From positions 1-34,553 of the IMG/VR virus record IMGVR_UViG_3300035703_000264: DNA of 34,553 bases; one strand, given 5' to 3'. Each line of letters opens with the position of its first letter. Position 1 is the first letter of the stretch. Below the pieces are notes generated by a model. It ran no database searches. It saw only the letters and a list, made by a program, of their open reading frames with translations, and was not told the DNA's origin. The stretch comes from a virus. Positions 11,501-30,145 of the stretch are shown one piece after another. A program made the translations under genes and the position numbers.

Positions 11501-14500
11501 ACATTCAACTACACTCCAATTGTCGTTACAGTTGATGGAGTAGTAGGAGTTTCTACAAAATCTGGCCAAGATTTTAATGCAAAAGTTCAACCAATTTTTA
11601 GGGGAGAAGTAAAATCAATTTTTATTTCTAATGGTGGTTCTAACTATGGATCACAAGAAATACTCAATTATAATAGGCAACCAATTATTTCGGTAAACAG
11701 TGGTACTGGTGCAGAAGTAATTCCAATTATTTCTGATGGAAAAATTGTTGAGGTATTGGTAGTTAATTCTGGTTCTGGGTATAATTCTTCTCCAGATCTA
11801 ATTATCGAAGGTCCTGGTCAAGGAGCACTACTTACTCCGATAATTCAAGATGGTCTAATATTAGAAATCAAAGTAATAACTGGTGGATTTGGATATGTTG
11901 GAGGATCTACAAAAATAAGAGTAGTATCTTCTGGATCTGGAGCTAAGTTTCAATCACTCACTAAGAAGTGGACAGTTAATCTTGTAGAAAGATACTTACA
12001 GACTAATCAAATTACTGCTGATGATGGATTTATTGCAAAAGGAATAAACAGTGCCAATGAATTGGAATATTGTCACTTGTATGCTCCAAGAAAATTAAGA
12101 CAATCAGTATATTCTTCTAGATTAATAGGTGGAGTTAAAAGATATTTTCCAGATCTTTCAATAATAAACAATACTGAAGTCAATTCATCATATCACTCAC
12201 CAATAATTGGATGGGCTTATGATGGAAATCCAATTTATGGTCCTTATGGATATTCTTTCACTACTGGTGGTCCTATAAAGCAATTAAAGAGTGGATATGA
12301 GTTAGTCAATAAAACAGGTAGACCTTCAACTTCATTATATCCATTGGGACTTTTTGTAGAAGATTATTCCTATAAAGCTTCTGGAGATCTAGATTCACAT
12401 AATGGAAGATTCTGCGTAACTCCAGAATTTCCAAATGGAACTTATGCGTACTTCGCATCTCTTGATCAAGGTATAGAGTCTTCTCCACCTTTCCGTGGAT
12501 ATAAAAAACCAAGTTTTCCATACTTTATAGGTAATTCTTTTAAGTCTGAGAAAATTACAGAAAACTTTGATCCTAAATGGAACCAAAGTGATATTGATAT
12601 CAATGAAAAACAGTGGTTTAGGAATACAAAACCATATGGATTTGCCAACAAAAATAGTTATTATGAATATATTTTAAATCCAAATGATATTAGGCAAAGT
12701 AATTCTATTGTTAGATTTAGTGAAAAAGGATCTATAACTTCTATTGGTATAAAAACTGGCGGAATTGATTATAAAGTTGGAGACACTATAACTTTTAATA
12801 ATGAAGGAACCTATGGAACTGGTGCATTTACAAAGGTATCTTCTATTAAAGGAAAAGAAGTAAACCAAATAAGTGTTGAAAGTACAAATATTTTTAATGT
12901 AGAATTTGCACCTCTATTATCAAACAATGTTTTTGTTGGTTTTTCTACCTTACCACATTCTCTTATAAACTCAGATATTATCAATATAAGTGGTTTAAGC
13001 ACAACTAATACGGGACTGAGTGGTAATTTTGTTGTAGGTGTTAGAACCGATACATTAGTTTTACAGTCTTCAATTGGATCTACTTCTTCGACAGGTATTG
13101 TTACATATTTTTCAGTATATGGATCTATTAATTATCCATATGTGAGAGAGAATGATATATTTGAACTTGACTCCGAAAAGATAAAAGTTCTAAACATTGA
13201 CTCAAGTTCTTCTAGAATTAGAGTTCTTAGAGAGTTTGATTCTACTATAGGATCTTCTCATACTGCATCAACAGTTCTTTACTCTAAGAGTAGAAAGTTC
13301 ACTGTCAATGGCGGCATTTCTTCATCAATTTACAACCTCAATAAAGAAATTTATTTTGATCCAAAAGAATCTCTAGGTATAGGTACAGTATCTGGCGTTG
13401 GAGTAGGATCTACAATATATTTTTCAAATCCTGGTGTTGGAATAACTGCAATATTTGTTCCTACGAAATCAATTTATTTAAAAGATCACAACTTACAAAC
13501 AGGAACGGAGATTTTTTATTCTTCAAATGGCGGAACTTCTATAGGAGTTTCTACTGATGGTGTAACAACTACAACTCTTACAGAAAATCAATCTCTTTAT
13601 GTTGCAAAGATAACAAATGATTTAATACAAATAGCAACATCTAAAGTTGGATTGGGTTCAACTGGTACATTTGTTGGAATTAATAGTTCAGTTGTTACTA
13701 ATACACTATATTTGACCAATGTAGGAACAGGAGATTATCATAGTTTTACTACAAATTATGAAAATGTAGTTACTGGAAGAGTATCTAAAAATTTAGTCAC
13801 AGTTTCAACAGCTACAACTCACGGACTTCGTTTCAATGACTCCGTTAATGTTACTTGTATTTCTGGAGTTACTACGACATATAAAATTTCATACAATGAT
13901 AACAATAGAGTTTTAACATTTAATTCTAAGAATTTTGTTGGAGCAAATGTAAACGTAAACTCAAATACAATTTCAATCCAAAATCACAACTATCATACTG
14001 GTGATTCAGTATTACACACTTCATCATCACCTTCTGGAGGCCTTTTAGATAGTAAGATTTACTATATTATAGTTATTGATTCGGATAATATAAGACTATC
14101 AGAATCTTACTATAATGCAACTATTCTAAATCCAGTATATGTTGATATAACATCAGCATCTTTAGGAACACTTTCTTTAGTAAATCCAAGTATAAATGTA
14201 ACCAAAAATCAAAACTTAGTGTTTGATTTATCGGATAGTTCACTATCATATACGAAAAATTCGATCAAATATTCTGCTTTTGATTTCAACTTATACTATG
14301 ATTCTGAATTTAAGCATCCATTCTTCACAACAGATGATACAAGAATATTCAATGTAATTAAGAGTGGAAGAGTTGGAATCGATACTACAGCAAAACTGAC
14401 TTTAACAATTGACCAAAACGTTCCAGAAACTTTATTTTATAATTTAAATCCAATCAATCAGTCTGATCTTCCAGTCGAAAAACTAAATTTAGTAACTGAT

Positions 14501-17500
14501 ACTGATGTTGCTAATAACAATTCAATTTTCATAAAAGACAGTGTTTATAGTGGAAAACACATCATTTCTGGCGTAGGATCAACAACATTTTCATACAGTG
14601 TTTCTACTATTCCTGAAAGGTCAAGTTATCTCTCTACTGAATCTACAATTTCATATACAACCAATTCTTTATCGGGTGTTGGTGAGATTTCCGAGGTAAG
14701 AGTAACTGCTGAAGGTAGAGGATATAAATCTTTACCATCAGTCAATTCTATTAATTCTGACCTTGGATCAGAAGCAGTATTAGTTATAAATTCAGAAAAC
14801 ATAGGTAAAATTAGAAATGTTGAAATTTTAGACATTGGATTTGATTATCCTATAGATAAAAGTCTGAGACCTCTCGCTCAGATTCCACAGATATTAAAAG
14901 TTATTCCACTTAACACTTTTGAAAGTATTGGAGTTACTTCTACAGGAAGAAATTACTCAGTTGCTCCAGACTTAATTGTTCTTGATGGGTTAACTGGCAA
15001 TGTAATTAAGGATGTTGATTTGAGATATAGTTTAACATCAAATCAAGTAACAATACTAAAAAATACTAAAGGTATAAATGAATCTACACCAACAATATTG
15101 CCCATAAACAATTCTAATGGTGTAGGAATTAATTCAATAACATTCAATTCCACAACTAAAGATGTTACTGTTGGATTAGCTGTAAGTTTTAGTGATGTTG
15201 TTTCTTATCCATTTGCAGTTGGAGATAAAGTTCTAATTGAAAATGTTTCTGTTGGTGTTGGAACTACATCTAAGGGATATAATTCTTCGGCATATAATTA
15301 TTCATTGTTTACACTAACATCAATAGATCCAAATATTGGAGGATCTAATGGAACAATTACGTTTAACTTAAATGAATACTTAGGTCCAAATGAAAATCCT
15401 GGAGTATTTGATGCTATTAACTCTTCTGGAATAGTAGTTCCTGAAAAATATTTTCCAATATTTGATGTAATTCTAACAAAAAATACCTTCTTTAAAGATG
15501 AGATTGTCAAATCAAATCTGTCACTGGGACAAGTTGAAAATTGGGATTCAAATAATGAATTATTGAGAGTGTCATCTTCTGATAACTTCTTTGCAAATGA
15601 TAGAATCATAGGACAATCTTCATTTTCTGAAGGGATTATAGACTTTGTTGAGTCATATAATTCCTCGTATAGTGTAGATTCTTCATCTATTGTTAGAAAG
15701 GGATGGGAATTAGAAACCGGATTTTTGAATAACAATATCCAAAGATTACACGATAATGATTATTACCAGTACTTCTCATATTCACTTAAGTCTAAGATAG
15801 AATATGAAGATTGGAATAATCCGATAAGTTCTTTGAACCATACCGCAGGTTTTAAGAAGTTTAGTGATTTAGTTGTAGAGTCTCAGGATCAACAAAATGT
15901 TGGAATTAATACCAACCAAAATAATGGAGATTTTGTTGGTCTAGCAGACATCATATCTACAATTGATACTAATTGTGTTAACGATTTTGATCTTGCTACA
16001 GAAAGGACCCTGAATATTTCTCCAATTATTTCGAAAGAAATAATTTTCAATACTAGAATACTTCAAGATTATGTCGAATCCGTAGGGAATAGAGTCTTAA
16101 TTATTGATGACATTAGTAATCAATTTAATAGTAATCCTAGAAGCACACAGTATAGCGTCGTAGATATTTTTAAATTGGATCGTGCAAGATCAAGAAAAAT
16201 TATTACTTATGTTCGTGATAGAAGATTCACTGACGAAAGACAAATACTTTTATTAACATTAATAAACGATAATTCAAACGCATACCTTAATCAGTATGGA
16301 AGAGTTGAAACTGTCGCTGATATGGGTTCTTTTGACTATGCAATTTCCGGAAATGAAGGTCTACTTCAATTTTATCCTGTAGATTATACAGTAAACAACT
16401 TTGATATTAGTCACGTTTCTTATAATATGAAAGATACTATTTCCGGAATTGGAACTCAGGATTTTGGAGACACTATTCAGGTCAAAACATCACATGTGAC
16501 ACTTGCACCGGGAACATCAACTGCAACGACAATTGTTGGAATTGCATCAACTTATAGAGCTTCTAAACTTATTGTAGAACTTAGTGATGAATCTGATTCA
16601 TATTACGAATTCAACGAATTTACTGTTCTTCATGATGGATCTAATGTTGAGTTATTGGAATATGGCAAAATAACAAATGATGCTGGTTATGGAATTGGAA
16701 CTTTTGGTGCAAGTATTTTTGGTTCTAATTTAATTTTAGAATTTACTCCTAATGTATCTCTAGCTTCAACTGTTATTGTAGACTCCGTAAGAATATCTGT
16801 TGCATCAACTCAATCAACTGGGGTTGGAACTGTTACTCTAAATACGACACTTTTAAATTCATTTAACACTGGAATAGGATCTACATCAACACCAGTTCAA
16901 AATGTAATTGCGTCATATAATGATCCATATAGTTCTGCATATTATTTTGTTTGTGTAGAAGATACTACAAATAATGAATATCAAGTTTCCGAAGTTGTTG
17001 TTGCTACTGCAGGAACAATCTCTGCTATTACAGAATTTGGTGAAATAGTCTCTAATAATACTCTTGGGTCAATAGATGTTGGAGTTACTGGTGGTACAAC
17101 TGAACTTTATTTCACTCCAAATCCAGACATTAATACTCAAGTTAGAGTTTTCCAAAATGCATTGAGAGTTTTAGATGATACTAATTTATTAAATGAAATA
17201 GATCTAATAGACGCATCTATTAATAGTGGAAGTGGAACTTATACAGGAACATTTAGTGACATTAAGAGATCTTTTAATTTGTCACATAATGGAGATCAAA
17301 TATTTGAAAGATTTTTTAATGGAAGTGATGGAAATATAGTTCAAATTGATGAAAATACTATAAAAGTTCCAAATCATTTTTATGTAACTGGTGAGGAATT
17401 AACTTATATAAATCCTGGCGCCGGAACAACACAAGCAATTGGAATATCTACTGTAAATACTGGAATTGTAGGTATTGGAACAACTGACAAACTTCCATCT

Positions 17501-20467
17501 ACAGTATATGCAGTAAAAATAGACAATCTAAGAATTAAGTTGGCTTCCTCAGCAGAAAATGCTTTGAAAACAGTTCCTATTGTTTATGATTTAACATCGG
17601 TTGGAATAGGAACAACTCATGCTTTTGTGGCAAAAAATCAAAATTCCAGAGTTATAATCGGAATTGATAATGTAATTCAATCTCCTATAGTTTCAACATC
17701 AGTGACAACAACTGTTGCTGAGAATATTTTTACAGTAGATGATGTTATTAAATTTACAGGTATTACATCTATTTTTGGTGGAGATTTAGTTCAAATTGGA
17801 AATGAGATAGTAAAAATCAATAGTGTTGGATTTGGAAGTACAAATGCACTCTTGGTTGATAGAGGATGGATGGGTACAGGATTGACAACACATTCTTCAG
17901 GAACATTAGTCACTAAAATTTATGGGGACTATAACATAGTAGATAACGTTATTAATTTTGTAAGTGCTCCATATGGTGCTATTCCTCTCGGAACATCTAC
18001 AAATCCACCAGACCAAAGAGATTATCTTGGAATTACCACAAGTTCTACGTTTAGTGGAAGATCCTTTATTAGATCTTCGATAGAAAATAGTTCAGTAGAA
18101 CCATACTCTAAGAACTACATATATGATGATATTTCTTCAGATTTTACTGGAGTAACGACTGAGTTTACTTTGAAGTATTCTGATAGCAATATTGGTGGAA
18201 TATCTACAAGTAATGCTGTTGTTTTGATAAATCAAATATTCCAACATCCACAAAGATTAGGTGGTCTAATTGATATTGAAGGTGATTATACTCTTAGAGA
18301 GAGTGTTGGTATTACTAGTATTCAATTTACAGGATCTATTACTTCTGGAAGTGATATTAATACATCCAATGTTCCTATTGGTGGAATAATAGTTTCTGTC
18401 GGATCTACAGAAGGATTTGGATATCAACCATTAGTTTCTGCTGGAGGCACAGCAATTGTTTCAATAGCAGGTACTATTTCTTCTATTAGTATTGGAAATA
18501 GTGGATCTGGATATAGATCAGGAATACAGACAGTAAATGTTGGTGTTTATACTGGTGGCCTTGGAATAGTAGACATTGAATATATTGGCATTGCTACTAT
18601 CGTTGATGGTCATATAACAGGAGTTGCAATTACAAATCCTGGCATAGGATACACAAATACCAATGCTCCATTTGTATTCTTTGATTCTCCATTGTCATAT
18701 ACAAATATTCCTTTAGTTTATAGTTCTTCATCTGTTCAAGGTTCTGGATCAAATGCAACTGTTGATATTGTGGTTGGTCAAGGATCCAGTGTAATTGATT
18801 TTGAAATTAAAAATCTTGGTTATGGATATGGCCAGGGAGAAATTTTAACAGTATCAATAGGTGGAACAGTAGGAATACCAACAAATTCTTCATTAACATT
18901 TGAAGAATTCCAAATATTTGTTGATAGAGTTCAAAGTGACACCTTCTCTGCATGGTCAATTGGTGATCTTCAAGTAATTGATAGTCCAGAAGATCTATTT
19001 GATGGAATTTTGAGATCATTCCCGATCAAAATAAATGGACAACAAACTTCAATAAGAGCAAAACTTGGTTCCATTATTAATGTTGAGGCAACACTTCTTG
19101 TATTTTTAAATGATGTCCTACAAGTTCCTGGAGAGGGATATACCTTCACTGGAGGTAGTTATATAAACTTTGCATCTCCACCAAAAGTAGGAGATAAGTG
19201 CAATATTCTTTTCTACAAGGGAACTGGTGATGTAGACACGACAAATGTTGATATTTTAGAAACTGTAAAGATTGGTGATATTGTTAGATTAAATGATGAC
19301 AATTTGATTTACAAAGAAAACTCAAGAATAGTTACAAATGTAAATTCCACTGATAGTGTGTTTACGAATCCATATGTAGGCCCTGGAATATCTCCAAATG
19401 AAACTTATGAAAGACCAGTCATATGGTGCAAACAAACTGAAGATATATTCATTCAAGGAAGCTATGTTGCAAAAGATAGAGTTCAATATGAACCTTTAAT
19501 ACAACCAACAACAAATATTATCCAAAGTATTGGTATAGGATCTACTGAAATTTTTGTGGAAAGTGTAAAAACTTTCTTTGACAGTAATAAAGAAAATACC
19601 ACAAGCAATATTCAATCAAAAATTAGAATTATTGATCAGAATTTAATTGTTGGTGCATCAGCAACAGCGGTGGTTTCCAGTGCAGGAACTATTTCTTCAA
19701 TCATAATTTCTGATGGTGGTGTTGGATATACTACCTCACCATCAGTTACTATTTCAAATCCTGTTGGTCTTGGTGCGACACAGAGAGCAACATCTCTAGC
19801 ATCAATTTCTGGAGGAACTGTTTCATCAATTACAATTTCATCACCAGGCGCAGGATACACTAGCACAAATCCACCACTTGTTCTCATAGAAGTTCCAACT
19901 TCAATTACTGAAGAAATTGAGGATGTAGTGTATAGTGGTGATTTTGGAATCATAACAGGAGTTAGTACTGTATCAGTTGGTGTGGCATCTACAGGATTAG
20001 TATTTGATTTGTTTATACCTACAAATTCATATTTGAGACAAAGTGCGATAGTCGGAACAGCAATCACTGTTAGTGGAATACAAACAGGGTATTACTTTGT
20101 TGTTAGTAGGTCTAATATTGGCAATGGTGTCACATCTCTACATCAAAATAGTTCCATAGTTGGCAATGGTACATCATTCTTGGATAATGTTTACGAGGTT
20201 GCTGCAGTTTCAATTGCACAAACGGCAGTTCCCGGCATAGGCATTACTGCAGTTGCAAAAGTAACTGTTAGTATTAGCAATTATAATGGTCTAAGTGGCA
20301 CAGGATACAGTAGTTTCTACGGAGATTTTAGTTGGGGCAAGATTGATGCTAGTAATAGAACCAATCCACAATCATTTGGATTTTATAATAATGGTCTAGT
20401 TGGAATTTCAACTTCTCCAATTATTGAAAGAGTAAATCCACTTAGATACTTAAATTATAACTCATAA
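8522..20467 (+). CDS. Giant 3981-residue baseplate/fibre protein in the gp7 position
   Basis: The slot between gp6 and gp8 is where T4 has gp7 (1032 residues). Residues about 193-215 read DFYSSKGTDGSFSILFGALY, and a following region (about 240-310) contains DGKEYYILSLDYDYD. From memory these parallel the C-terminal core of T4 gp7, so a gp7-type wedge core seems buried near this N-terminus. The rest is beta modules: 'GxGY' repeats (for example IVEVLVVNSGSGYNSSPDLI), 'H..hTGe.v.Y' modules near residues 587, 815, 925, 1656, 1821 and 2950, and 'idsEiitYtG....gcvRG' modules. A YHYH-type domain occupies about residues 1220-1315 (GWAYDGNPIYGPYGY ... DLDSHNGRF ... PNGTYAYF). It probably fastens wedge parts and projects fibre-like arms. 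No membrane or signal segment is seen. The reading frame is unbroken. Confidence 0.8.
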   Translation: MSEKRVKISSIVENQLPNFIKEDFPLVAEFLSQYYTSTEYPGGSVDILQNIDQHIKLESLTGLTDSTTLSTDISFFETDIIVSSTSGFPDSYGLIQIDSEIITYTGKTETSFTGCVRGFSGITSFHDKNHPDHLVFSDSEISEHVSGTTVQNLSSLFLKEFFDKIKKQVIPGFDNRTLDADLNQRVFIQRAKDFYSSKGTDGSFSILFGALYGEPVQVIKPRDYLFKPSDAQYRLVRDLVVEALDGNPELLVNRTLFQDQTKDFPKAFGSVTSVEKITRDGKEYYILSLDYDYDKDIDVEGSVFGRFSIHPQTKIVSEVISGSNTIDVDSTVGFPESGNLIVRLENETELSISYQSKSLTQFFGCSGITQDIPDASNIRIDAYAYGYVGFDTNATAKVRVTGVLSDLQIDDQTKYCGDNDTIKIKSLGKEVDNIKFNNWFYNISTKYDVKNISLVDFLNNSYLIETYDENNFVLGDSIIIESNGNIAIGQISTIENLNAFVVSGQGQLNLNYKYQVRKKVSKTNSINFPETSIYSTNVQNTYADKNEDLYVASSSLPSYFGQPLEIKDRSITFSGSFSGETLVIGNHDFYTGEAVYYESNSSANSLGIPNGIYYIKRVNNTTVKLSRSRANIYNESFISLNSNGAIVDNKLSHLDFYGKTLKSQHLIRKISKPIETDTDTTTDFGPTGILVNGVEILNYKSKDSIFYGAIEKIDVISPGTGYDVINPPILSILDNQGSSAQGFCSVEGGLERIDVIDSGFDYVTEPVINITGGSGTGAIAKAKLAEFRHSVNFNPEATALLVNLTSNTIGFSSFHKFRDGEKVTYLTNRGVSVGGLSTNSSYYVYVEDSFNVKLHKTYDDAIIGVNTISLTSYGSGNHSFVADKVKKKILKIDVINSGSGYKNRKIDTPISGINTYNNTIDIVDHGYNSGEVIRYSSSNTPPDGLSNNSDYYVTKISDNQFKLSPVGLGSTNIDFYYNTNQFVKLQSTGIGTHTFNYTPIVVTVDGVVGVSTKSGQDFNAKVQPIFRGEVKSIFISNGGSNYGSQEILNYNRQPIISVNSGTGAEVIPIISDGKIVEVLVVNSGSGYNSSPDLIIEGPGQGALLTPIIQDGLILEIKVITGGFGYVGGSTKIRVVSSGSGAKFQSLTKKWTVNLVERYLQTNQITADDGFIAKGINSANELEYCHLYAPRKLRQSVYSSRLIGGVKRYFPDLSIINNTEVNSSYHSPIIGWAYDGNPIYGPYGYSFTTGGPIKQLKSGYELVNKTGRPSTSLYPLGLFVEDYSYKASGDLDSHNGRFCVTPEFPNGTYAYFASLDQGIESSPPFRGYKKPSFPYFIGNSFKSEKITENFDPKWNQSDIDINEKQWFRNTKPYGFANKNSYYEYILNPNDIRQSNSIVRFSEKGSITSIGIKTGGIDYKVGDTITFNNEGTYGTGAFTKVSSIKGKEVNQISVESTNIFNVEFAPLLSNNVFVGFSTLPHSLINSDIINISGLSTTNTGLSGNFVVGVRTDTLVLQSSIGSTSSTGIVTYFSVYGSINYPYVRENDIFELDSEKIKVLNIDSSSSRIRVLREFDSTIGSSHTASTVLYSKSRKFTVNGGISSSIYNLNKEIYFDPKESLGIGTVSGVGVGSTIYFSNPGVGITAIFVPTKSIYLKDHNLQTGTEIFYSSNGGTSIGVSTDGVTTTTLTENQSLYVAKITNDLIQIATSKVGLGSTGTFVGINSSVVTNTLYLTNVGTGDYHSFTTNYENVVTGRVSKNLVTVSTATTHGLRFNDSVNVTCISGVTTTYKISYNDNNRVLTFNSKNFVGANVNVNSNTISIQNHNYHTGDSVLHTSSSPSGGLLDSKIYYIIVIDSDNIRLSESYYNATILNPVYVDITSASLGTLSLVNPSINVTKNQNLVFDLSDSSLSYTKNSIKYSAFDFNLYYDSEFKHPFFTTDDTRIFNVIKSGRVGIDTTAKLTLTIDQNVPETLFYNLNPINQSDLPVEKLNLVTDTDVANNNSIFIKDSVYSGKHIISGVGSTTFSYSVSTIPERSSYLSTESTISYTTNSLSGVGEISEVRVTAEGRGYKSLPSVNSINSDLGSEAVLVINSENIGKIRNVEILDIGFDYPIDKSLRPLAQIPQILKVIPLNTFESIGVTSTGRNYSVAPDLIVLDGLTGNVIKDVDLRYSLTSNQVTILKNTKGINESTPTILPINNSNGVGINSITFNSTTKDVTVGLAVSFSDVVSYPFAVGDKVLIENVSVGVGTTSKGYNSSAYNYSLFTLTSIDPNIGGSNGTITFNLNEYLGPNENPGVFDAINSSGIVVPEKYFPIFDVILTKNTFFKDEIVKSNLSLGQVENWDSNNELLRVSSSDNFFANDRIIGQSSFSEGIIDFVESYNSSYSVDSSSIVRKGWELETGFLNNNIQRLHDNDYYQYFSYSLKSKIEYEDWNNPISSLNHTAGFKKFSDLVVESQDQQNVGINTNQNNGDFVGLADIISTIDTNCVNDFDLATERTLNISPIISKEIIFNTRILQDYVESVGNRVLIIDDISNQFNSNPRSTQYSVVDIFKLDRARSRKIITYVRDRRFTDERQILLLTLINDNSNAYLNQYGRVETVADMGSFDYAISGNEGLLQFYPVDYTVNNFDISHVSYNMKDTISGIGTQDFGDTIQVKTSHVTLAPGTSTATTIVGIASTYRASKLIVELSDESDSYYEFNEFTVLHDGSNVELLEYGKITNDAGYGIGTFGASIFGSNLILEFTPNVSLASTVIVDSVRISVASTQSTGVGTVTLNTTLLNSFNTGIGSTSTPVQNVIASYNDPYSSAYYFVCVEDTTNNEYQVSEVVVATAGTISAITEFGEIVSNNTLGSIDVGVTGGTTELYFTPNPDINTQVRVFQNALRVLDDTNLLNEIDLIDASINSGSGTYTGTFSDIKRSFNLSHNGDQIFERFFNGSDGNIVQIDENTIKVPNHFYVTGEELTYINPGAGTTQAIGISTVNTGIVGIGTTDKLPSTVYAVKIDNLRIKLASSAENALKTVPIVYDLTSVGIGTTHAFVAKNQNSRVIIGIDNVIQSPIVSTSVTTTVAENIFTVDDVIKFTGITSIFGGDLVQIGNEIVKINSVGFGSTNALLVDRGWMGTGLTTHSSGTLVTKIYGDYNIVDNVINFVSAPYGAIPLGTSTNPPDQRDYLGITTSSTFSGRSFIRSSIENSSVEPYSKNYIYDDISSDFTGVTTEFTLKYSDSNIGGISTSNAVVLINQIFQHPQRLGGLIDIEGDYTLRESVGITSIQFTGSITSGSDINTSNVPIGGIIVSVGSTEGFGYQPLVSAGGTAIVSIAGTISSISIGNSGSGYRSGIQTVNVGVYTGGLGIVDIEYIGIATIVDGHITGVAITNPGIGYTNTNAPFVFFDSPLSYTNIPLVYSSSSVQGSGSNATVDIVVGQGSSVIDFEIKNLGYGYGQGEILTVSIGGTVGIPTNSSLTFEEFQIFVDRVQSDTFSAWSIGDLQVIDSPEDLFDGILRSFPIKINGQQTSIRAKLGSIINVEATLLVFLNDVLQVPGEGYTFTGGSYINFASPPKVGDKCNILFYKGTGDVDTTNVDILETVKIGDIVRLNDDNLIYKENSRIVTNVNSTDSVFTNPYVGPGISPNETYERPVIWCKQTEDIFIQGSYVAKDRVQYEPLIQPTTNIIQSIGIGSTEIFVESVKTFFDSNKENTTSNIQSKIRIIDQNLIVGASATAVVSSAGTISSIIISDGGVGYTTSPSVTISNPVGLGATQRATSLASISGGTVSSITISSPGAGYTSTNPPLVLIEVPTSITEEIEDVVYSGDFGIITGVSTVSVGVASTGLVFDLFIPTNSYLRQSAIVGTAITVSGIQTGYYFVVSRSNIGNGVTSLHQNSSIVGNGTSFLDNVYEVAAVSIAQTAVPGIGITAVAKVTVSISNYNGLSGTGYSSFYGDFSWGKIDASNRTNPQSFGFYNNGLVGISTSPIIERVNPLRYLNYNS

Positions 20468-20486: not shown

Positions 20487-22040
20487 ATGTCTGCAATTAT
20501 AACTGATCAGTTAAGAATATTGAATGCAAAAAGTTTTGTATCTGCAGCTACAACAGATACAAATTCTTTTTATGCATTTGTTGGTCTTCCCAATGCTTCT
20601 GATTATCAGTCAAATTGGGATTCATTGCCGCCTGCACCAAAGGATAATTTTGATCAGGAAAATGATTATTGGGATACGATGATCGCACTAAAAAAAGTGC
20701 AAGATGGAGATGTCAAACAAGTTGTTAGAAAAATTACTTGGACATCCGGAACGACTTATGATATGTATAGACATGATATAAGTAGAACAAATACATCAAA
20801 ACCTTCTGGAGCAACTAGTTTATATTCTTCAAATTTTTATGTTGTCAATGAAGACTATAAAGTTTATATTTGCTTATATAATGGAATAGATCCAGAAAAT
20901 CCTAATGGAAGACCATCTCTGGATCAACCAACATTTACTGATCTAGAGCCCAGAGCAGCGGGAGATAGCGGAGATGGTTATTTGTGGAAATACTTATATA
21001 CTATCAAACCAAGTGATATTGTAAAGTTTGATTCTACAGATTATATTCCTGTTCCTAGAGATTGGGAATCTAGTTCAGATAATTTTGCGGTTAGAGAAAA
21101 CGCATCTACAAGCGGTCAATTAAAAATAGTAACTATTACAAACAGAGGTGTTGGACTAGGAACCGCAAATAGAACTTATACTAGAGTTCCTATCAAGGGT
21201 GATGGTTCTGGAGCAGAAGCTACTATTGTTATAAACAATGAATCTGAAGTTGAAAGTGTTACTATATCCAAAGGAGGTTCTGGATACACATACGGAACAT
21301 TAGATTTGTTGGCAGGAAGTGTCCCTACAGGATCTAGTTCTCCAACATTTAATGTCATAATACCGCCTAAAGGTGGTCATGGTGCAGATATTTACAGAGA
21401 GTTGGGAGCATATAATGTACTAGTTTATTCGAGAATAGAAAATGATGTAGAAAATCCAGATTTTATAACAGGTAATCAAATAGCAAGAGTTGGCATAGTA
21501 GAAAATCCGGAAGTATTTGGATCTTCCTCTTTACTATCAATAGATAAAGCAAGCGCAGTCTATGCATTAAAACTCGTTGGAACTGGTTATAGTTCAGCAG
21601 TTTTTAATGCAGATTCTAGAATTACACAAACAATAGGTGTTGGTTCAACTGCTATTGGTAGAGTAGTTTCTTATGATCAAAACACTGGTGTTTTGAAGTA
21701 TTGGCAAGATAGAAGTCTTGTAGGATTTAATACAAATGGAACTCAAAATTCATCACCAACTTATGGATTTAATTTGAATAGATTTTCTTCAGAAATAGGA
21801 TCTGGAGGATCTTTAAACATTATTGGAGGAAGTGTTACATTAGGAATTGATACTTCATTTAGTGGTGTATCTACCACAATAAATAGTAGAACATATTATC
21901 TTGGTCAGACTTTTACCAATGGAGTATCTAATCCTGAGGTTAAAAAATATTCAGGAAATATAATTTATGTTGATAATAGACCCTCTATAACAAGGTCATC
22001 CAATCAAAAAGAAGATATCAAAGTTATTTTGCAATTCTAA
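20487..22040 (+). CDS. gp8: Baseplate wedge subunit gp8
   Basis: The N-terminus (MSAIITDQLRILNAKSFVSA ... SFYAFVGLPNASDY) and the region VVRKITWTSGTTYDMYRHDI (about 81-100) are typical of T4-like gp8. So is the stretch from NFYVVNEDYKVYICLYNG (about 116-133) to SGDGYLWKYLYTIKPSDIVK. gp8 dimerises and joins gp7 and gp10 in the outer wedge. The protein is 517 residues against 334 in T4. The excess includes a GxGY module (VESVTISKGGSGYTYGTLDL, about 252-271) of the kind repeated in the giant protein. It starts 19 bases after the giant gene and ends six bases before the next. Confidence 0.93.
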   Translation: MSAIITDQLRILNAKSFVSAATTDTNSFYAFVGLPNASDYQSNWDSLPPAPKDNFDQENDYWDTMIALKKVQDGDVKQVVRKITWTSGTTYDMYRHDISRTNTSKPSGATSLYSSNFYVVNEDYKVYICLYNGIDPENPNGRPSLDQPTFTDLEPRAAGDSGDGYLWKYLYTIKPSDIVKFDSTDYIPVPRDWESSSDNFAVRENASTSGQLKIVTITNRGVGLGTANRTYTRVPIKGDGSGAEATIVINNESEVESVTISKGGSGYTYGTLDLLAGSVPTGSSSPTFNVIIPPKGGHGADIYRELGAYNVLVYSRIENDVENPDFITGNQIARVGIVENPEVFGSSSLLSIDKASAVYALKLVGTGYSSAVFNADSRITQTIGVGSTAIGRVVSYDQNTGVLKYWQDRSLVGFNTNGTQNSSPTYGFNLNRFSSEIGSGGSLNIIGGSVTLGIDTSFSGVSTTINSRTYYLGQTFTNGVSNPEVKKYSGNIIYVDNRPSITRSSNQKEDIKVILQF

Positions 22041-22046
22041 AGAATC

Positions 22047-25000
22047 ATGCCACAAGAAACAAATCTTAATGTCTCTCCATATTTTGATGACTTTGATCAG
22101 AATAAAGGATATTATAAGGTCCTTTTTAAACCCGGATATCCTGTTCAAGCTAGAGAACTAACGACTCTTCAATCAATATTACAAAACCAAATTGAGCAGT
22201 TTGGAACACATGTATTTACTGAAGGATCTGTAGTAATTCCAGGATCTCTTGGGTATAGAAATGATTTAAATGCGGTAATTCTTGAAAATGATATTTTCAA
22301 CGTAAATGTTGAGACATATCTACCATATGCTGTAGGAAAGGTAGTAAGAGGTCAACAAAGTGGAATTCGTGCAAGGATAGATTTTTATTTAAGTTCTCTT
22401 TTTACTGAGTCGGGCAATTCAACTTTATATGTAACCTATTTAAATTCGGATTCTTTAGAAAATGAAAGAAAAATATTTTTAGATTCCGAAAACTTAATAA
22501 TTGAAGAAGATGTTACCGGAGATGAATTTGAATTTCCTGTTGGAACCACTCCAACAGTTATATTGAGATCTGGAGAAGTAATTGCCAGAACTATTAGTAA
22601 TGGCAGTGCTGCTATAGGATCTGCTGTATATTTAACTGAAGGAGTATATTTTGTTAGAGGAAATTTTGTAAAGGTATATGATGACTTTTTAGTAATATCT
22701 CAATATTCAAATGTTCCAAGTGTAAAAGTTGGATTCAAAATAATAGAAAGTGTAGTAAATTCATATGAAGATGAGTCGTTGAATGACAACGCACAAGGAT
22801 TTTCTAATTATGCTGCACCAGGAGCTGATCGATTTAGGATAACATTATCCTTAGTTGCTTTACCAATAGATTCTACAGACCTTGATGATTTTATCTTACT
22901 GAAAGAAATTAGAAATGGTGTAGAAATTACAACTAGAAATTCACCAAATTATAATATTCTAGCCCAAGAGTTTGCAAGAAGAACTTTTGATGAATCTGGA
23001 GATTATTATGTAAAAAAACCTACATTAAAAGTTGCAGAAACTTTAAATGATTTGAAGGGTAATGGAGGTATTTTTAAAGAAGATTCGTTAACATATAATA
23101 ACAACACACCTTCAGAAGATCTCGGAACATATGTCATTTCTCCTATAAAGGCATACATAAGAGGATATGAAGTAGAAAATATTGTTCCAACATATGTTGA
23201 TTTTAGAAAACCAAGAGAAACTAAACTTTTAGAAAATCAAAGTATTAATTATCTTACTGGACCAACTTTTACTTTAAATAGAGTTTATGGTTCTCCAGTT
23301 ATTGGGTTATCAACTACTTATACTCTTTCTCTAAGAGATACTAGAGTTGGTAATAATCAAATTTCTCAAGTAGGAAAGGAAATAGGTCTTGCAAGAGTTT
23401 ATGATTTTGCATTAGAATCGGGATCATATAGTTCTTTAAATCCAGACTCCAATGAGTGGGACATTACTTTATATGATCTCCAAACATTTACAGAGATTTC
23501 TGTAAATGAACCCATTAGTCTGACAGTACCAACTCAAATAAAAGGAAAATCTAGTGGCGCAACTGCATATCTTAGATATACTACTTCAACTTCTGGAATA
23601 ATTACTGCATATAACGTTCAAGGATCATTTTCAGTTGGTGAAAGATTAATATTTGATGGGATAGAGAATACTAGAGTTTCAACTGCAGTGACATCATATT
23701 CAGAAAATGATGTAAAGTCTCTTTATGGAATAGTTGGATCGGCATACACCTTTACTGCGGACTTAAAACAATACGCAAATTACCAAATAGGTTTAGTTAA
23801 TGTTAGTGGAATTAGTGGAGGAGTAAGCACTGTAACTTCAACTAATTCTATTTTTACTGGCATTGCTACTGTAGGAAATCTTGTATCTTTTAGCAATCCA
23901 GGATTAACTGTACCTACATTTGCAAAAATAAATCAAGTTTCTCAAAATAGTTTGGTAATTAGTGGAATCACTACGGTATCTGGTGTTTGTGATGGAAGGC
24001 TTCCAACAACTAATATTACACCAGCAGACTTTTCAATACTGAGTTCTAAATTACAGTCTTCAACAGATAATACGTTATATACCGTCCTTCCTAAACAAAA
24101 TATAGCAAATGTAGATTTAACTAATTCTGATATAATAATTAGAAAACAGTATGATGTGACAATTACATCAAGATCAACAAATACTATAACTGCACTTGAG
24201 ACTGAAACTTTCTTGCCATTTGATGAAGAAAGATATGTTCTTATTAATAAGAATGGAACTACGGAAGAGTTAACACCTGATAAATTTGTTTTTACAAATG
24301 GATCTAGAAGTTTAACTATTAATGGTTTATCTTCATCTGGTGATGCAAAACTCATAGCTACATTAAGAAAAGTCTCAGTAAAATCAAAGATAAAATATAA
24401 AAATAAAGTAAAATCAATAATTGTAGATAAATCCAAATACGATTATTCTGGTATTGGTTCTACTACAATTAATGATGGATTAGCATATGGCAACTATCCA
24501 TATGGAACTAGAATCCAAGATGAAGAACTTTGTTTATTGCATCCAGATGTAACAAAAATACATGGTGTTTTTGAGTCTGATGATATTAATGATCCAAATC
24601 TTCCATCTCTACAGTTAACTTCTCTTACAGGACCAACTTCAAAAACTGGAGATTTAATACTTGGCGAAGAAATTGTTGGAAGTCTAAGTCAATCTGTCGC
24701 AGTATATTGTGAGAAAATTAACGATCTTCAAGTAGGATTTGTATATCTCAATTCTTCTAGATTTATTAATGGCGAAGAAGTAACATTTAAGGAGTCTGGA
24801 ATTAAAGCTACTGTAACTTCTGTGAGTATTGGTGATAATAACATAACATCAAATTATGCATTTATTAACGGACAAAAGAACACAATATATGATTATTCGA
24901 AGTTAATAAGAAATAAAAATTCAAAAGAACCAACTTCAAAACTAAAAATAATCTTCGAATATGCAGAATTTTTATCATCTGATAATGGCGATATAACAAC

Positions 25001-27353
25001 TGCAAATTCATATGAACAATATGACTATTGTGATGTTCAATCAGTTAATGGAATTAGAAATACAGATATAATTGATATTAGACCTAAAGTTTCTAGTTTT
25101 TCAGTATCTGAAGGAGTAAGATCTCCATTTGAATTTTTAGGAAGATCTTTTGATCAATATAATAATTCTGCACCTAATATTTTAGCGTCTGATGAATCTT
25201 CATTGATGAGTTATTCATTTTATCTTGGAAGAATTGATAAAATTTATTTATCTAAAGATGGAGTATTTCAACTTATTTCAGGTGCTCCTTCAGAGGTCCC
25301 ACAACCACCACAACCAATTCAAGATTCTCTAGAAATTTCTACAATTTATCTTCCACCATACCTTTGTAATATTGAAAATACTACAATCAATCTCTCCGAA
25401 CATAAGAGATATAGAATGGTGGACATTCAAAATCTTGAAAATAGAGTTAAAAATCTTGAGTTTTATACCGCTTTAACTCTTCTAGAGATTGATACTTCAA
25501 ACTTGCTAATCACTGATGCGAACGGATTAAATAGATTCAAATCTGGATTTTTTGTCGATGATTTTTCAACTACGGATTCGCAGAAAAAAGTAACTATAGT
25601 TAAAAATTCAATTAATATTAAAGATTCTGAATTAAGACCAACACATTACACTACTCAATTAGATCTTCTTTTAGGTACAAACTCACTGGTGGGAATAGGA
25701 ACATCCTCAAATCCACTAGCAGATGCAAAATACACCAATGACTTAATCGGATCTGGAGTTAAAAGGACAGGCCAAGTCATAACTTTAGATTATGAAGAGG
25801 TTGCTGAAATAAATCAACTCTTATCTACAAGAGTGGTCAATGTAAATCCATATGCGTCAGATTTCTTCGGAGGAACAATAGAATTATTCCCATCCTCGGA
25901 TGTTTGGATTGATCAAGTAAGATTAGAACCAAAAACTGTAGACGCAGAAGGTAATTATTTGCAAACCAGAACGCAACTTATTGCACAGGGATTTGATTCT
26001 CAAACTGGATTTGGTCCAGTAACTTGGGGTTCTTGGGAAACTGTTTGGACTGGAGAAAGTGTATCAAATACAACAAGAGAAGTTACTAGGGGTTATAATG
26101 TTTATTCCGATGAAATTACAGTAACAACTAAAACAGGAACTTCTACTCGCCAAGGAAAAAGGCAGGTACTAAAAGAACAGTTTGATAACACATCTTTTGG
26201 CGATCAAGTTTTAAATAGTCAACTAATACCTTATGTAAGGTCGAGAAATATTGAATTTACCGCAAAGAGATTAAAACCATCAACAAGAATGTATGCTTTC
26301 TTTGATGGAGTAAATGTAAATTCATATGTGGTTCCAAAGTTACTTCAAATAAGTATGCTTAATGGAATTTTTGAAGTTGGAGAAACTGTGATCGGAACAT
26401 TTGATTCTTCTGATCCAAATTCACCTTCTATTCGCTTTAGAGTTGCTAATCAAAATCATAAGTATGGTCCATATAATAATCCAACGGATATTTTTACGTT
26501 AAATCCATACGATATAAACCAATCAATTCCAGAAATATATTCATCAACATCTTCAATTTTAAACATTGACATATACAGTCTTTCTAACCAACCTCAGGGA
26601 CTATATTATGGATATGTCTCGCAAAATATGAAATTGAAAGGACAAACTAGTGGAGCAGAAGCGACAATAACTTCCGTAAGACTAATTACTGATAATGTTG
26701 GAACACTTATTGGATCATTATATATTCCAGATCCAAACATTACAATTAATCCAAAATTTGAGGCAGGAACAAAGGTTTTAAGACTAACTAATAGTTCTAT
26801 TAATTCGCAAATTATTGGTTCTACATTTTCTACTGCTGATGAAAAATATTTTGCAGAAGGTAAAGTTAATACTGTCCAAGAAAATATTATTGTTGTCCGT
26901 AATTCTAGAGTAGAAACAGAAACTCCTATTGAAAGTAAATCCGAAACTCAGGTTGGTCCAGAAAATGTTGTCAAGAGTACTTTAATTAGAACTATTCCAG
27001 TTCCAGCACCTAGTGGTGGCGGAGGAGGTGGAGGAGGACAAAGAACATATCAAGGATTTGCTGCAGGATATGATGCTGCTACAGGAGCAAGTGGTATTGT
27101 TAACCAAAATGCTGGTGGATCACAGTCTGCTGCATTTGGTGGAGGAACATCTGCAGTTCTTGGTGCATCTGCGGTCGAAAGAGCAATTGCAGATGGTTAT
27201 AGTTTAGCATCGATTCAATCTTGGGTTGCTTCTAGCGGAGCAATTGTTGGACCAGTAGCTGCGGCTAGGTTTGGATTGAGTGATTTAGAATTGAAGAGAA
27301 ATATACAAAACATTGATAATGCTCTAAATAGGTTATTGAATATTAAAATATGA
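22047..27353 (+). CDS. DUF4815-type fibre/baseplate protein ending in half of an S74 chaperone
   Basis: This protein is 1768 residues. The start (NVSPYFDDFDQNKGYYKVLF, then KPGYPVQARELTTLQSILQN and FTEGSVVIPG) is characteristic of the DUF4815 proteins of cyanomyoviruses. A VDIQNLENRVKNLEFYTALT helix (about 1128-1147) and a long beta region follow. Residues 1657-1664 are eight glycines, a linker-like seam. Beyond it lies a Gly/Ala-rich stretch and AARFGLSDLELKRNIQNIDN. Ser1745-Asp and Lys1750 match the SDxRLK start of the Peptidase_S74 self-cleaving chaperone of phage fibres, but the frame closes 18 residues after Lys1750. The missing part is encoded by the next ORF. Its place after gp8 corresponds to T4 gp9/gp10, so it may join fibres to the baseplate. 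Confidence 0.82.
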   Translation: MPQETNLNVSPYFDDFDQNKGYYKVLFKPGYPVQARELTTLQSILQNQIEQFGTHVFTEGSVVIPGSLGYRNDLNAVILENDIFNVNVETYLPYAVGKVVRGQQSGIRARIDFYLSSLFTESGNSTLYVTYLNSDSLENERKIFLDSENLIIEEDVTGDEFEFPVGTTPTVILRSGEVIARTISNGSAAIGSAVYLTEGVYFVRGNFVKVYDDFLVISQYSNVPSVKVGFKIIESVVNSYEDESLNDNAQGFSNYAAPGADRFRITLSLVALPIDSTDLDDFILLKEIRNGVEITTRNSPNYNILAQEFARRTFDESGDYYVKKPTLKVAETLNDLKGNGGIFKEDSLTYNNNTPSEDLGTYVISPIKAYIRGYEVENIVPTYVDFRKPRETKLLENQSINYLTGPTFTLNRVYGSPVIGLSTTYTLSLRDTRVGNNQISQVGKEIGLARVYDFALESGSYSSLNPDSNEWDITLYDLQTFTEISVNEPISLTVPTQIKGKSSGATAYLRYTTSTSGIITAYNVQGSFSVGERLIFDGIENTRVSTAVTSYSENDVKSLYGIVGSAYTFTADLKQYANYQIGLVNVSGISGGVSTVTSTNSIFTGIATVGNLVSFSNPGLTVPTFAKINQVSQNSLVISGITTVSGVCDGRLPTTNITPADFSILSSKLQSSTDNTLYTVLPKQNIANVDLTNSDIIIRKQYDVTITSRSTNTITALETETFLPFDEERYVLINKNGTTEELTPDKFVFTNGSRSLTINGLSSSGDAKLIATLRKVSVKSKIKYKNKVKSIIVDKSKYDYSGIGSTTINDGLAYGNYPYGTRIQDEELCLLHPDVTKIHGVFESDDINDPNLPSLQLTSLTGPTSKTGDLILGEEIVGSLSQSVAVYCEKINDLQVGFVYLNSSRFINGEEVTFKESGIKATVTSVSIGDNNITSNYAFINGQKNTIYDYSKLIRNKNSKEPTSKLKIIFEYAEFLSSDNGDITTANSYEQYDYCDVQSVNGIRNTDIIDIRPKVSSFSVSEGVRSPFEFLGRSFDQYNNSAPNILASDESSLMSYSFYLGRIDKIYLSKDGVFQLISGAPSEVPQPPQPIQDSLEISTIYLPPYLCNIENTTINLSEHKRYRMVDIQNLENRVKNLEFYTALTLLEIDTSNLLITDANGLNRFKSGFFVDDFSTTDSQKKVTIVKNSINIKDSELRPTHYTTQLDLLLGTNSLVGIGTSSNPLADAKYTNDLIGSGVKRTGQVITLDYEEVAEINQLLSTRVVNVNPYASDFFGGTIELFPSSDVWIDQVRLEPKTVDAEGNYLQTRTQLIAQGFDSQTGFGPVTWGSWETVWTGESVSNTTREVTRGYNVYSDEITVTTKTGTSTRQGKRQVLKEQFDNTSFGDQVLNSQLIPYVRSRNIEFTAKRLKPSTRMYAFFDGVNVNSYVVPKLLQISMLNGIFEVGETVIGTFDSSDPNSPSIRFRVANQNHKYGPYNNPTDIFTLNPYDINQSIPEIYSSTSSILNIDIYSLSNQPQGLYYGYVSQNMKLKGQTSGAEATITSVRLITDNVGTLIGSLYIPDPNITINPKFEAGTKVLRLTNSSINSQIIGSTFSTADEKYFAEGKVNTVQENIIVVRNSRVETETPIESKSETQVGPENVVKSTLIRTIPVPAPSGGGGGGGGQRTYQGFAAGYDAATGASGIVNQNAGGSQSAAFGGGTSAVLGASAVERAIADGYSLASIQSWVASSGAIVGPVAAARFGLSDLELKRNIQNIDNALNRLLNIKI

Positions 27354-27390
27354 TGATTCTAGAAAAATTATTGAACATAAATGGAAAAAA
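27321..27390 (+). repeat. 35-bp imperfect tandem duplication at the chaperone break
   Basis: Positions 27321-27355 and 27356-27390 align as two 35-base units sharing TTATTGAA and flanking bases; they encode LNRLLNI and LEKLLNI. Because 35 is not a multiple of three, two copies throw the chaperone out of frame and create the ATATGATG stop/restart. Removing one unit joins ...NIDN directly to ILEKLLNINGKKYEW in frame. Confidence 0.65.
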
Positions 27391-27604
27391 ATATGAGTGG
27401 AACGATAAAATGAACAAGTTGACAGGTGTACAGGGAGTTCATCATGGAGTTATAGCTCAAGAAGTTCAAAAAGAATTTCCTGAAATGGTCATGAAAGGCT
27501 CTGATGGTTACTTAAGAGTTGATTATATTCAACTTATTCCAGTTATGATTGAAGCGATAAGAGAATTAAAGATGGAAATAGATCAACTTAAATTAAATAA
27601 ATAA
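27350..27604 (+). CDS. C-terminal part of a split S74 intramolecular chaperone (84 aa)
   Basis: The ORF reads MMILEKLLNINGKKYEWNDK, then VHHGVIAQEVQKEFPEMV (about 34-51) and DGYLRVDYIQLIPVMIEAIR with a helical tail. These are the standard second half of Peptidase_S74: 'G.kYeWn', 'GviAQEVq.efPemV', 'vdY..LipvmieAiReLk'. The catalytic SDxRLK segment is on the preceding gene. The start codon overlaps that gene's TGA (ATGATGA), so it may be translated by reinitiation and associate with the fibre as a separate chaperone subunit. A sequencing or assembly error is the main alternative, although a 35-bp duplication makes simple miscalling less likely. Confidence 0.85.
   Translation: MMILEKLLNINGKKYEWNDKMNKLTGVQGVHHGVIAQEVQKEFPEMVMKGSDGYLRVDYIQLIPVMIEAIRELKMEIDQLKLNK
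27596..27603 (+). promoter_or_regulatory. Late promoter (AATAAATA) for the 833-aa virion protein
   Basis: AATAAATA overlaps the Asn-Lys-stop end of the chaperone ORF, 40 bases before the next ATG. The surrounding 13-mer AATAAATAAGATA is identical to the one before gp25. This supports independent late transcription of the downstream gene. Confidence 0.6.
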
Positions 27605-27643
27605 GATATTAGATTAACGAAAGGAAAATCCCAGATAAAACTC

Positions 27644-30145
27644 ATGAAAGTAGTAGATCCTTTAGCTCAATCATTTTATGTAGAACCTGAAAGTGGCATT
27701 TTTGTAACTTCTGTAGATTTATACTTTCAATCAAAAGATGAACAACTACCGGTTACAATACAGTTAAGACCCATGCAATTGGGCCTTCCTACACAAGTTG
27801 TTTATCCTTTTAGTGAAATAGTTTTAGAACCAGAACAAGTTAATATTTCTGATGATTCATCTGTACCAACAAGAGTAACTTTTAATTCACCTGTTTATCT
27901 CACTGGTGAGACTTTTCACTCGATTGTTATTTTATCAAATTCCGATAGGTATAATGTTTGGGTATCAAAATTAGGTGAGTCAAATGTATCATCAGGGTCT
28001 AATTTAGAGTCTAATCAATTCTTGGTACTAAAGCAACCTTTGCTCGGAGGTTTATTTAAATCACAAAATGCTGCTACATGGAATGAAAGTCCTTTCGAAG
28101 ATTTAAAATTTACTCTTTACAGGGCAAAATTCACACAAACAAGCGGTAATTTTAATTTATATAATTCTGATTTAAGTATTGGCAATGGTCAGGTGTCTAG
28201 ACTTTTGCCAGATTCTTTGGAAATGACTTCTAAAAAAATTAGAGTTGGTCTAGGAACTACAGTTCAAGATAATAACTTTATTATAGGAAATACTATTTTC
28301 CAAAAAACTTCTACAGGAACTGGTACTTATGTTGGGGTTGCCGGAACTGCAAAAGGAAGTTTAAGAATAATAAATGCTGGAATAGGTTATACACCTTCTT
28401 CTGGTTCTAATAGTTTTACTGGAGTTGCATTAACTAGTATCACTGGAAGTGGTAGAAATGCAACTGCAAATATTACTATTAATAACGGAGTAGCTATTGC
28501 AGCTACTATAAGTAATGGTGGAATAGGATATCAAGTTGGCGATGTCTTATCGGCACTTCAAGTTGGAAATGATCTTCTTGGCAGAAACCTGAGATTATCA
28601 GTTTCCGAATTAAATGGATTCAATGAGATTATTATTGATGAAGTCCAAGGTGAATTTGCAACTGGTGTAGGAAATACTATATTTTTCATTAATAGTTCTG
28701 GTATTTCTACGGCATTAAATTCTGGTATTGGCGGAAATGTCATAATTCCTACTAATGGTATTCAAGTTGTTGAGGATGGATTAACCATAAAGGTCAATCA
28801 CAAAAATCATGGAATGCACACCGGAGAAAATATAGTAACAATTTCCAATGTGTTATCTGATATAAAACCAAAACAACTAATTACTGCATATGAAAAAACT
28901 TCTACTGCAGATATACAACTTGATGATGTGACAAACTTAACAACATTTGAAAATGTTGGTGTTGGAACTACCAATCCGGGATATATTTTGATCGGAGAAG
29001 AAATTATTTCATATGAGGGAATTGTCGGAAATTCTCTTACTGGAATTACAAGAGAAATAGATCAATCTAAAGCATTTAGTTACGATCAAGGAACAGAAGT
29101 TTATAAGTATGAACTTAATGGAATTTCACTTAGAAGAATTAACACCAATCATACTTTGCAAGATTCCACGGCCAGTGATCCGATTGATCTAGATTTCTAT
29201 ACTTTAAAAATAGATACTACTCAAGATGGAAAAACAGCACCTCTTCCACAAGGACAGGTTAATAGAGCGGTTGAAGGTTATCCAAAGTTATTTGCAAATA
29301 AGACAAAATCAACTGGTGGATCATCAATCAATGCAACTCAAAACATTCAATTTGAATTAATTCGACCAAATATTCAGACACTTACACTAAACAGTACAAA
29401 TATTTCTGCTAAAGTAAAAACTGTTTCTGGAACTAGTGTCGATGGCAATGAAGTTTCATTTATTGATAAAGGATTCCAAGATATAGATTTAAATACCAAT
29501 AACTATTTCGATAGTCCAAGATTAGTAGCATCAAAAATTAATGAGACTAATAATCTTACAACGATTCCTGGAAATAAGTCTTTCACAGTAAATCTATCTT
29601 TAACATCATCTAATGAATACTTATCTCCCGTCGTTGATTTAGATCGACTTGGAATGATATTTGTTTCAAATAGAATTAATAGTCCGATTCAAAATTATTC
29701 CACAGATAATAGAGTTTCGACTTTAATTGACGATCCTTCTTCTTTCGTTTATGCCACAAATGCAATTTCACTTGAAGCTCCCGCATCTTCGATTAAAATT
29801 TTGGTTGCGGCATATGTGAATATCAATAGTGATCTTAGAGCTTTCTATTCAATTCTCAATGATCCTTTAGATGATCCAATTTATTATCCATTCCCTGGAT
29901 ATTCCAATCTAACTCTTTCCGGTGAAGTTATTGATCCATCAGCGAATGATGGAACATCTGATAAATTTGTTCCAAAAGTCGATAATTTAGATTATGGAAA
30001 TAATGAATCGATATTTAAGGACTATGAATTTACTATTGACAACCTATCATCGTTTAGATATTTTAGTATTAAACTTGTAGGATCATCAACAAATCAAGCA
30101 TATCCTCCAAGACTAAAAGATTTAAGAGTTATTGCTCTTGCATGA
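27644..30145 (+). CDS. Virion structural protein beginning 'DPLAQSF' (833 aa), likely downstream half of the fibre/baseplate polypeptide
   Basis: The protein opens MKVVDPLAQSFYVEPESG and continues IFVTSVDLYFQSKDEQLPVT, then LRPMQLGLPT and VYPFSEIVLEP. It also has SPVYLTGETFHSIVILSNSD. In cyanomyoviruses I recall this 'DPLAQ.F.v..G.f.tSvDlyF.sKD' domain following the DUF4815 part, often in the same chain. Here the upstream frame differs only by one TAA. Residues about 245-305 carry GxGY modules (SLRIINAGIGYTPSSGSNSF), near residue 387 is an HGMHTGENIV module, and about 440-475 an 'IGEEIISYEG...GITRE' module, all shared with the giant protein. The C-terminus, FRYFSIKLVGSSTNQAYPPR, resembles the usual ending of these proteins. 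AAGGA lies 19 bases upstream, rather far. Confidence 0.8.
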   Translation: MKVVDPLAQSFYVEPESGIFVTSVDLYFQSKDEQLPVTIQLRPMQLGLPTQVVYPFSEIVLEPEQVNISDDSSVPTRVTFNSPVYLTGETFHSIVILSNSDRYNVWVSKLGESNVSSGSNLESNQFLVLKQPLLGGLFKSQNAATWNESPFEDLKFTLYRAKFTQTSGNFNLYNSDLSIGNGQVSRLLPDSLEMTSKKIRVGLGTTVQDNNFIIGNTIFQKTSTGTGTYVGVAGTAKGSLRIINAGIGYTPSSGSNSFTGVALTSITGSGRNATANITINNGVAIAATISNGGIGYQVGDVLSALQVGNDLLGRNLRLSVSELNGFNEIIIDEVQGEFATGVGNTIFFINSSGISTALNSGIGGNVIIPTNGIQVVEDGLTIKVNHKNHGMHTGENIVTISNVLSDIKPKQLITAYEKTSTADIQLDDVTNLTTFENVGVGTTNPGYILIGEEIISYEGIVGNSLTGITREIDQSKAFSYDQGTEVYKYELNGISLRRINTNHTLQDSTASDPIDLDFYTLKIDTTQDGKTAPLPQGQVNRAVEGYPKLFANKTKSTGGSSINATQNIQFELIRPNIQTLTLNSTNISAKVKTVSGTSVDGNEVSFIDKGFQDIDLNTNNYFDSPRLVASKINETNNLTTIPGNKSFTVNLSLTSSNEYLSPVVDLDRLGMIFVSNRINSPIQNYSTDNRVSTLIDDPSSFVYATNAISLEAPASSIKILVAAYVNINSDLRAFYSILNDPLDDPIYYPFPGYSNLTLSGEVIDPSANDGTSDKFVPKVDNLDYGNNESIFKDYEFTIDNLSSFRYFSIKLVGSSTNQAYPPRLKDLRVIALA

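Follow-up and report, generated by a model that had tools for sequence, protein, structure and literature searches.

The Peptidase_S74 domain is the textbook intramolecular chaperone, used a single time and then discarded. In the stretch of viral DNA analysed here (the window; 34,553 nucleotides, positions 1 to 34,553 of IMG/VR record IMGVR_UViG_3300035703_000264), one such domain is divided between two neighbouring open reading frames, P1 and P2, raising the question of whether the break is an error, a decaying gene or a chaperone supplied in two pieces. The S74 pair belongs to a baseplate-to-neck gene cluster from a T4-like virus of cyanophage type, in which gp6 (6601-8517) and gp8 (20487-22040) are followed by P1, P2 and P3, and then by neck, sheath-stabiliser and small terminase genes. 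Among isolates, the gp8 protein is closest to that of Synechococcus phages (about 70% identity). The reading developed below, which we consider probable, is that of a naturally split S74 (endosialidase-type) chaperone, whose late-expressed P2 acts in trans on the tail of P1, with P1 then cutting itself.

P1 (22047..27353, + strand) and P3 (27644..30145, + strand) are two parts, in order, of one large VrlC-type virion protein: P1 is the N-terminal part (DUF4815; phrog_358 positions 1-1410) and P3, a separate gene, the C-terminal part (phrog_358 positions 1421-2055). The VrlC-type protein of SynMITS9220M01 (QJT70098.1) is encoded by a single 7.6-kb gene, and it is also a single ORF in 51 related contigs (e.g., L071, L074 and L130). 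The S74 pair thus occupies the P1/P3 break (22047-30145), where other cyanophages have one continuous protein; this structural protein is of the VrlC type of Kyanoviridae (phrog_358), and its version in the window is interrupted by the pair. The break in the VrlC-type protein is also present, with S74 absent, in L059, L064, L070 and L072.

The 1768-aa P1 has a C-terminus reading ...ARFGL-SDLELKRNIQNIDNALNRLLNIKI*, its stop falling 24 residues into the S74 domain. These 24 codons (SDLELKRNIQNIDNALNRLLNIKI; 27279..27350, + strand) form the N-terminal half and include the catalytic Ser1745 (27279-27281) and Lys1750 (27294-27296), and the P1 sequence agrees with the original prediction that the half carrying this pair ends one gene. 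The Ser-Lys dyad, in the motif SDxxLK, lies at the start of the S74 domain in 34 of 34 relatives, on P1, and is absent from P2. S74 autocleavage takes place after the conserved serine (PMC8217332), and the cleavage site of P1 is predicted to follow Ser1745. The stretch before this serine is Gly/Pro-rich or unrelated, without an evident beta-helical stalk of the kind typical of classical S74 proteins.

The remainder of the domain had been placed in an 84-residue ORF in another frame, and this is where it was found: P2 (27350..27604, + strand; 84 aa) is a separate gene in the -1 frame encoding the C-terminal body of the chaperone. It matches positions 17-57 of the 58 in Pfam Peptidase_S74 (PF13884; E 1.7e-10; 41.5 bits vs a cut-off of 22), model positions 1-16 falling in P1. 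The predicted structure of P2 (pLDDT 89.7) has the characteristic S74 fold, including the C-terminal coiled-coil helix; it aligns over its full length with residues 601-696 of the MyRF ICA (7dc3; Z 8.6, rmsd 1.6) and also matches the K1F, GA-1 and T5 chaperones (structure entries matched: 7dc3, 3gw6, 3gud and 4uw8). In MyRF the dyad, S587/K592, lies just upstream of residue 601, trimerisation is driven by the C-terminal coiled coil, and ICA cleavage occurs in the trimer only (PMC8326128). One P2 (L003:5001-5333) is alone in being extended at its C-terminus, by about 27 residues (...TLWTWGSNSYGKIRTK).

Scanning IMG/VR with P2 brought up 41 contigs that share the break, and the P2 alignment as query added one. 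These 42 contigs come from 35 metagenomes and, counted with the window, give 43 contigs with 34 distinct sequences, which share descent and are not independent. In all 43, that is, in every contig with a close P2 relative, P1 and P2 are separate ORFs broken at the same place, with P2 identities to the window of 59-95% across the split relatives. At the end of every split P1, SDxxLKxNI is followed by a helix segment, in most cases NALNRL, and then by the stop codon, from which the P2 start lies -14 to +11 nt away. The roughly 78 S74 domains at greater distance, none above 50% identity, are all continuous, three phage-collection records and two bacterial genomes being among them; L173, a short contig in which the S74 region is cut off, was left out of this judgement. 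In a tree of 100 domains the split S74 domains form one clade (support 95/95), the inner forks being uncertain owing to the few columns available, and intact S74 occurs only outside this clade. A tblastn search with P2 against the phage collection (555 records, all below 60% identity) recovered no isolate with the split; among the matches listed identity was at most 47%, and the three fetched carry a continuous S74 domain. Bacterial and archaeal genomes gave two S74 matches, both continuous, and searches of open-access papers turned up no report of a split or trans-acting S74 domain.

Judged from these contigs, the S74 split is real, old and conserved, and its simplest history would be a single split that was then inherited vertically, with the pair passing to another protein at least once. 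The original prediction had described an old and perhaps functional split of one S74 domain, and had asked whether related phages share the break or all carry one continuous frame; within the clade every member keeps the break, so the latter does not hold there. Taken with the sequence constraint and the co-occurrence described below, the clade-wide break indicates that the split is probably functional.

The late promoter of T4 is TATAAATA, and a similar core is found a short distance before P2 in both the window and its relatives. In the window this is CTAAATA (27324..27330, + strand), embedded in P1 codons 1760-1762 (L-N-R) and predicted to be the core of a gp55-type late promoter for P2, from which transcription would be expected to start about 12 nt past the core, near 27336. 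It is one base off the S-PM2 late promoter, NATAAATA (PMC2984593), and equals the Aeh1 form, (a/g)CTAAATA (PMC2988020). [A/C]TAAATA is present within the P1 tail, upstream of P2, in all 34 distinct sequences, at 26-32 nt from the P2 start in 32 of them, as against six copies in all across 116 kb of P1 bodies; this difference makes P2 look like a separately transcribed late gene. Random synonymous recoding of the tails retained the motif in a mean of 4.65 and a maximum of 12 of the 34 sequences. At codons 16-17 of the tail, Leu is CTA in 31 of 33 cases and Asn is AAT in 30 of 30, the share of CTA among Leu codons elsewhere in the same P1 genes being about 12%; the exceptions keep the motif elsewhere, as CTAAATA on other codons (L003, L012) or as ATAAATA encoding I-N-S (L014, L020).

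With no motif preset, ATAAATA came out as the 7-mer with the highest enrichment ahead of long genes in the related contigs (175-fold), and CTAAATA stands at -27 to -31 of the neck gene in several of them. In contigs where P3 comes directly after P2, P3 has its own late-promoter-like core (in the window ATAAATA, 27597..27603, + strand, which overlaps the last codons of P2), and the embedded motif can therefore be assigned to P2. Intact S74 domains hold [AC]TAAATA in 6 of 64 cases, through either chance or common ancestry. Across the coding sequence of the related contigs, ATAAATA (0.034 per kb) and CTAAATA (0.003 per kb) are approximately 10- to 100-fold rarer than GTAAATA (0.27 per kb) and TTAAATA (0.34 per kb), as if late-promoter cores were avoided inside genes. 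Both the embedded motif and the location of the S74 pair at the VrlC break had been missed in the original prediction.

Translational coupling could account for P2 synthesis if ribosomes restarted at its overlapping start codon and CTAAATA were inactive, in which case the chaperone would still be two-piece. Stop and start within -14 to +11 nt of each other in all relatives, often overlapping (ATGA, TAATG), are as coupling would have them, and so is a survey by eye in which no consistent Shine-Dalgarno sequence was seen before P2. We nevertheless regard coupling alone as unlikely, given that [AC]TAAATA is conserved at the DNA level in 34 of 34 sequences at a promoter-like distance, and that L003, L012, L014 and L020 keep it at other codons with other residues. 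Since stop and start lie within 14 nt, reinitiation after P1 may supplement the synthesis of P2.

The strong DNA-level constraint in the P1 tail could in turn be taken to mean that the tail is idle, its S74 codons persisting mainly as the P2 promoter, with P2 an ordinary trans-acting chaperone; in L012 the helix residues have indeed diverged with the motif retained. A promoter does not explain, however, why S, D, L5, K6, N8, I9 and I12 of the tail are invariant in all 34 distinct sequences while synonymous change is free, which makes an idle tail improbable. P2 is constrained as well, with dN/dS values of 0.03-0.1 in many close pairs and a median of 0.25.

The two halves are also present or absent together. 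Among 71 classified VrlC loci, both S74 halves or neither were present, and one alone in none; in the 20 loci where P3 is separate and the upstream sequence long enough, both halves occurred in 8, neither in 12 and a single half in 0. A close relative, L058/L059 (P3 81% identical), has neither half, and the P1 of L059 stops, with KFGLR*, where the window has its catalytic serine. As S74 cleavage takes place after that serine (PMC8217332), the S74-less P1 of L059 would encode roughly the mature form. In L012/L013, the split pair is attached to a different upstream protein without a VrlC match, which suggests that the pair moved as a unit; in L012 (3553-5258) the pair, including CTAAATA, sits on a 483-aa protein lacking any Pfam or VrlC match. 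By eye, the L012 fibre seemed to contain a Hint-like stretch, but Pfam gave no match to it and no such domain is claimed.

At the junction ATATGATG (27348..27355, + strand), the P1 stop (TGA, 27351-27353) overlaps the P2 start (ATG, 27350-27352). The break falls at helix alpha-1 of the S74 domain, which is encoded by both halves: the first copy, NALNRLLNI, is in P1 (27318..27344, + strand) and the second, ILEKLLNI, at the start of P2 (27356..27379, + strand). A 35-bp tandem duplication had originally been proposed here, and it is at the protein level that this proposal stands, as the two segments align to one S74 helix. At the DNA level, the two 35-nt units are identical at only 20 of 35 positions and were reported by neither of two repeat finders, and a tandem-repeat element as such was rejected. 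Equally well-matching adjacent 35-mers make up 0.05% within the window, and 4 of 300 random 121-nt regions contained a tandem pair, of whatever unit length, that matched as well; by itself, the DNA repeat is weak evidence. The spacing from Ser to helix in P1 is 15 codons, as in intact S74 domains, and in the intact relatives the serine lies nearly always 45 nt before the helix. Duplication of the helix makes sense in that P1 ends with the first copy, within which the promoter motif lies, and the second completes the P2 fold.

The occurrence of TTATTGAA at both helix copies, together with a 35-nt gap that fits the frame offset, would also suit a programmed frameshift or a ribosomal bypass of the T4 gene 60 type fusing P1 and P2 into one S74 domain, frameshifting having been among the options first put forward. 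In the relatives, however, the gap between the helix copies is 34, 35, 40, 41, 43 or 44 nt and both non-zero frame classes are found, and on account of this variable gap and frame such a fusion was rejected as very improbable; moreover, many relatives differ in their take-off and landing codons, matched pairs of which are not conserved, and in all relatives P2 has its own start codon near the P1 stop and its own promoter motif. An assembly error or a recent pseudogene, which the window alone could not exclude, is scarcely credible when the break recurs in 42 further contigs (35 metagenomes, 59-95% identity) under purifying selection, and both artefact and decay are refuted as far as the contigs allow.

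For the split chaperone we therefore return to the reading outlined at the start, in which P1 would be a late virion protein whose C-terminus holds the cleavage site, the Ser/Lys dyad and helix alpha-1. P2 would be transcribed from the gp55-type promoter within the 3' coding part of P1, translation by ribosomes finishing P1 being probable as well, and would supply the remaining chaperone fold with its C-terminal coiled coil. A P2 trimer would then capture three P1 tails in trans, the binding rebuilding the S74 active site and the P1 C-terminus becoming trimerised or folded, after which P1 would cut itself behind Ser1745 and the 23-residue tail would be shed together with P2. Because alpha-1 is duplicated, either copy may fill the active site, a point counted against this explanation, as is the lack of an evident stalk ahead of Ser1745 for P2 to fold. 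The more specific proposal that a substrate bearing its own Ser-Lys dyad stays inert until a separate P2 trimer completes the site, and that P2 then leaves and is perhaps re-used, we consider evenly balanced.

The described S74/ICA proteins (endosialidase NF/K1F tailspike, GA-1 neck appendage, T5 L-shaped fibre, S16 fibre and MyRF) share with the split pair the P2 fold, the SDxxLK dyad motif and the order of elements. They are single polypeptides, whereas the pair divides dyad and body between two genes, encodes helix alpha-1 twice and has no evident beta-helical stalk before the cleavage site. With chaperone and substrate on separate ORFs in 43 of 43 contigs, the pair falls outside the intramolecular definition of Peptidase_S74. 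T4 gp38, Mu Tfa and V22 gp27 resemble P2 in being encoded by a small chaperone gene directly 3' of a structural gene, and we know of no sequence kinship between P2 and any of them; P2 differs in that its substrate, P1, carries the catalytic half of the chaperone and should cut itself. Separately encoded tail-fibre chaperones are expected to act in trans and not to be retained in the virion (PMC7289586). The P2 motif has the core of T4-type late promoters and a similarly short distance to the gene start, and is unlike them in lying within codons for a self-cleaving domain, so that late promoter and catalytic domain share bases.

The two-piece encoding in this group of uncultured cyanophage-like viruses suggests that a built-in 'use once' chaperone became a separately supplied one. 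If P2 does complete the site in trans and is re-used, the locus would represent an evolutionary step from a 'use once' intramolecular to a catalytic intermolecular chaperone. A conserved natural split would reveal how an S74 domain turns into a separate chaperone. The pair would also offer a ready two-piece system for testing trimerisation-triggered self-cleavage, and could serve as a conditional C-terminal cleavage tool. Small S74-like ORFs annotated behind fibre genes may likewise be functional halves, not debris.

Other features were observed around the pair. In one subgroup a SET-domain gene lies between P2 and P3 (L022:5276-5695, L023:5266-5676 and L026:5258-5725), identified by Pfam SET in L022 (E 7e-13) and by resemblance in L023 and L026. 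A SET methyltransferase is unusual in a phage tail operon; lacking a late-promoter motif of its own, the gene is perhaps co-transcribed with P2. In the window, a single ORF of 3981 aa (8522-20467) has gp6 on one side and gp8 on the other, and its product is probably a giant protein of the baseplate or of a fibre. A 34-nt element, TGGGCCCCTTAAAGTGTATCAGTAGTATAAGCAC, recurs in the left part of the window at 313-346, 2560-2593 and 2820-2853 (three copies, 76-100%), close to where small ORFs start.
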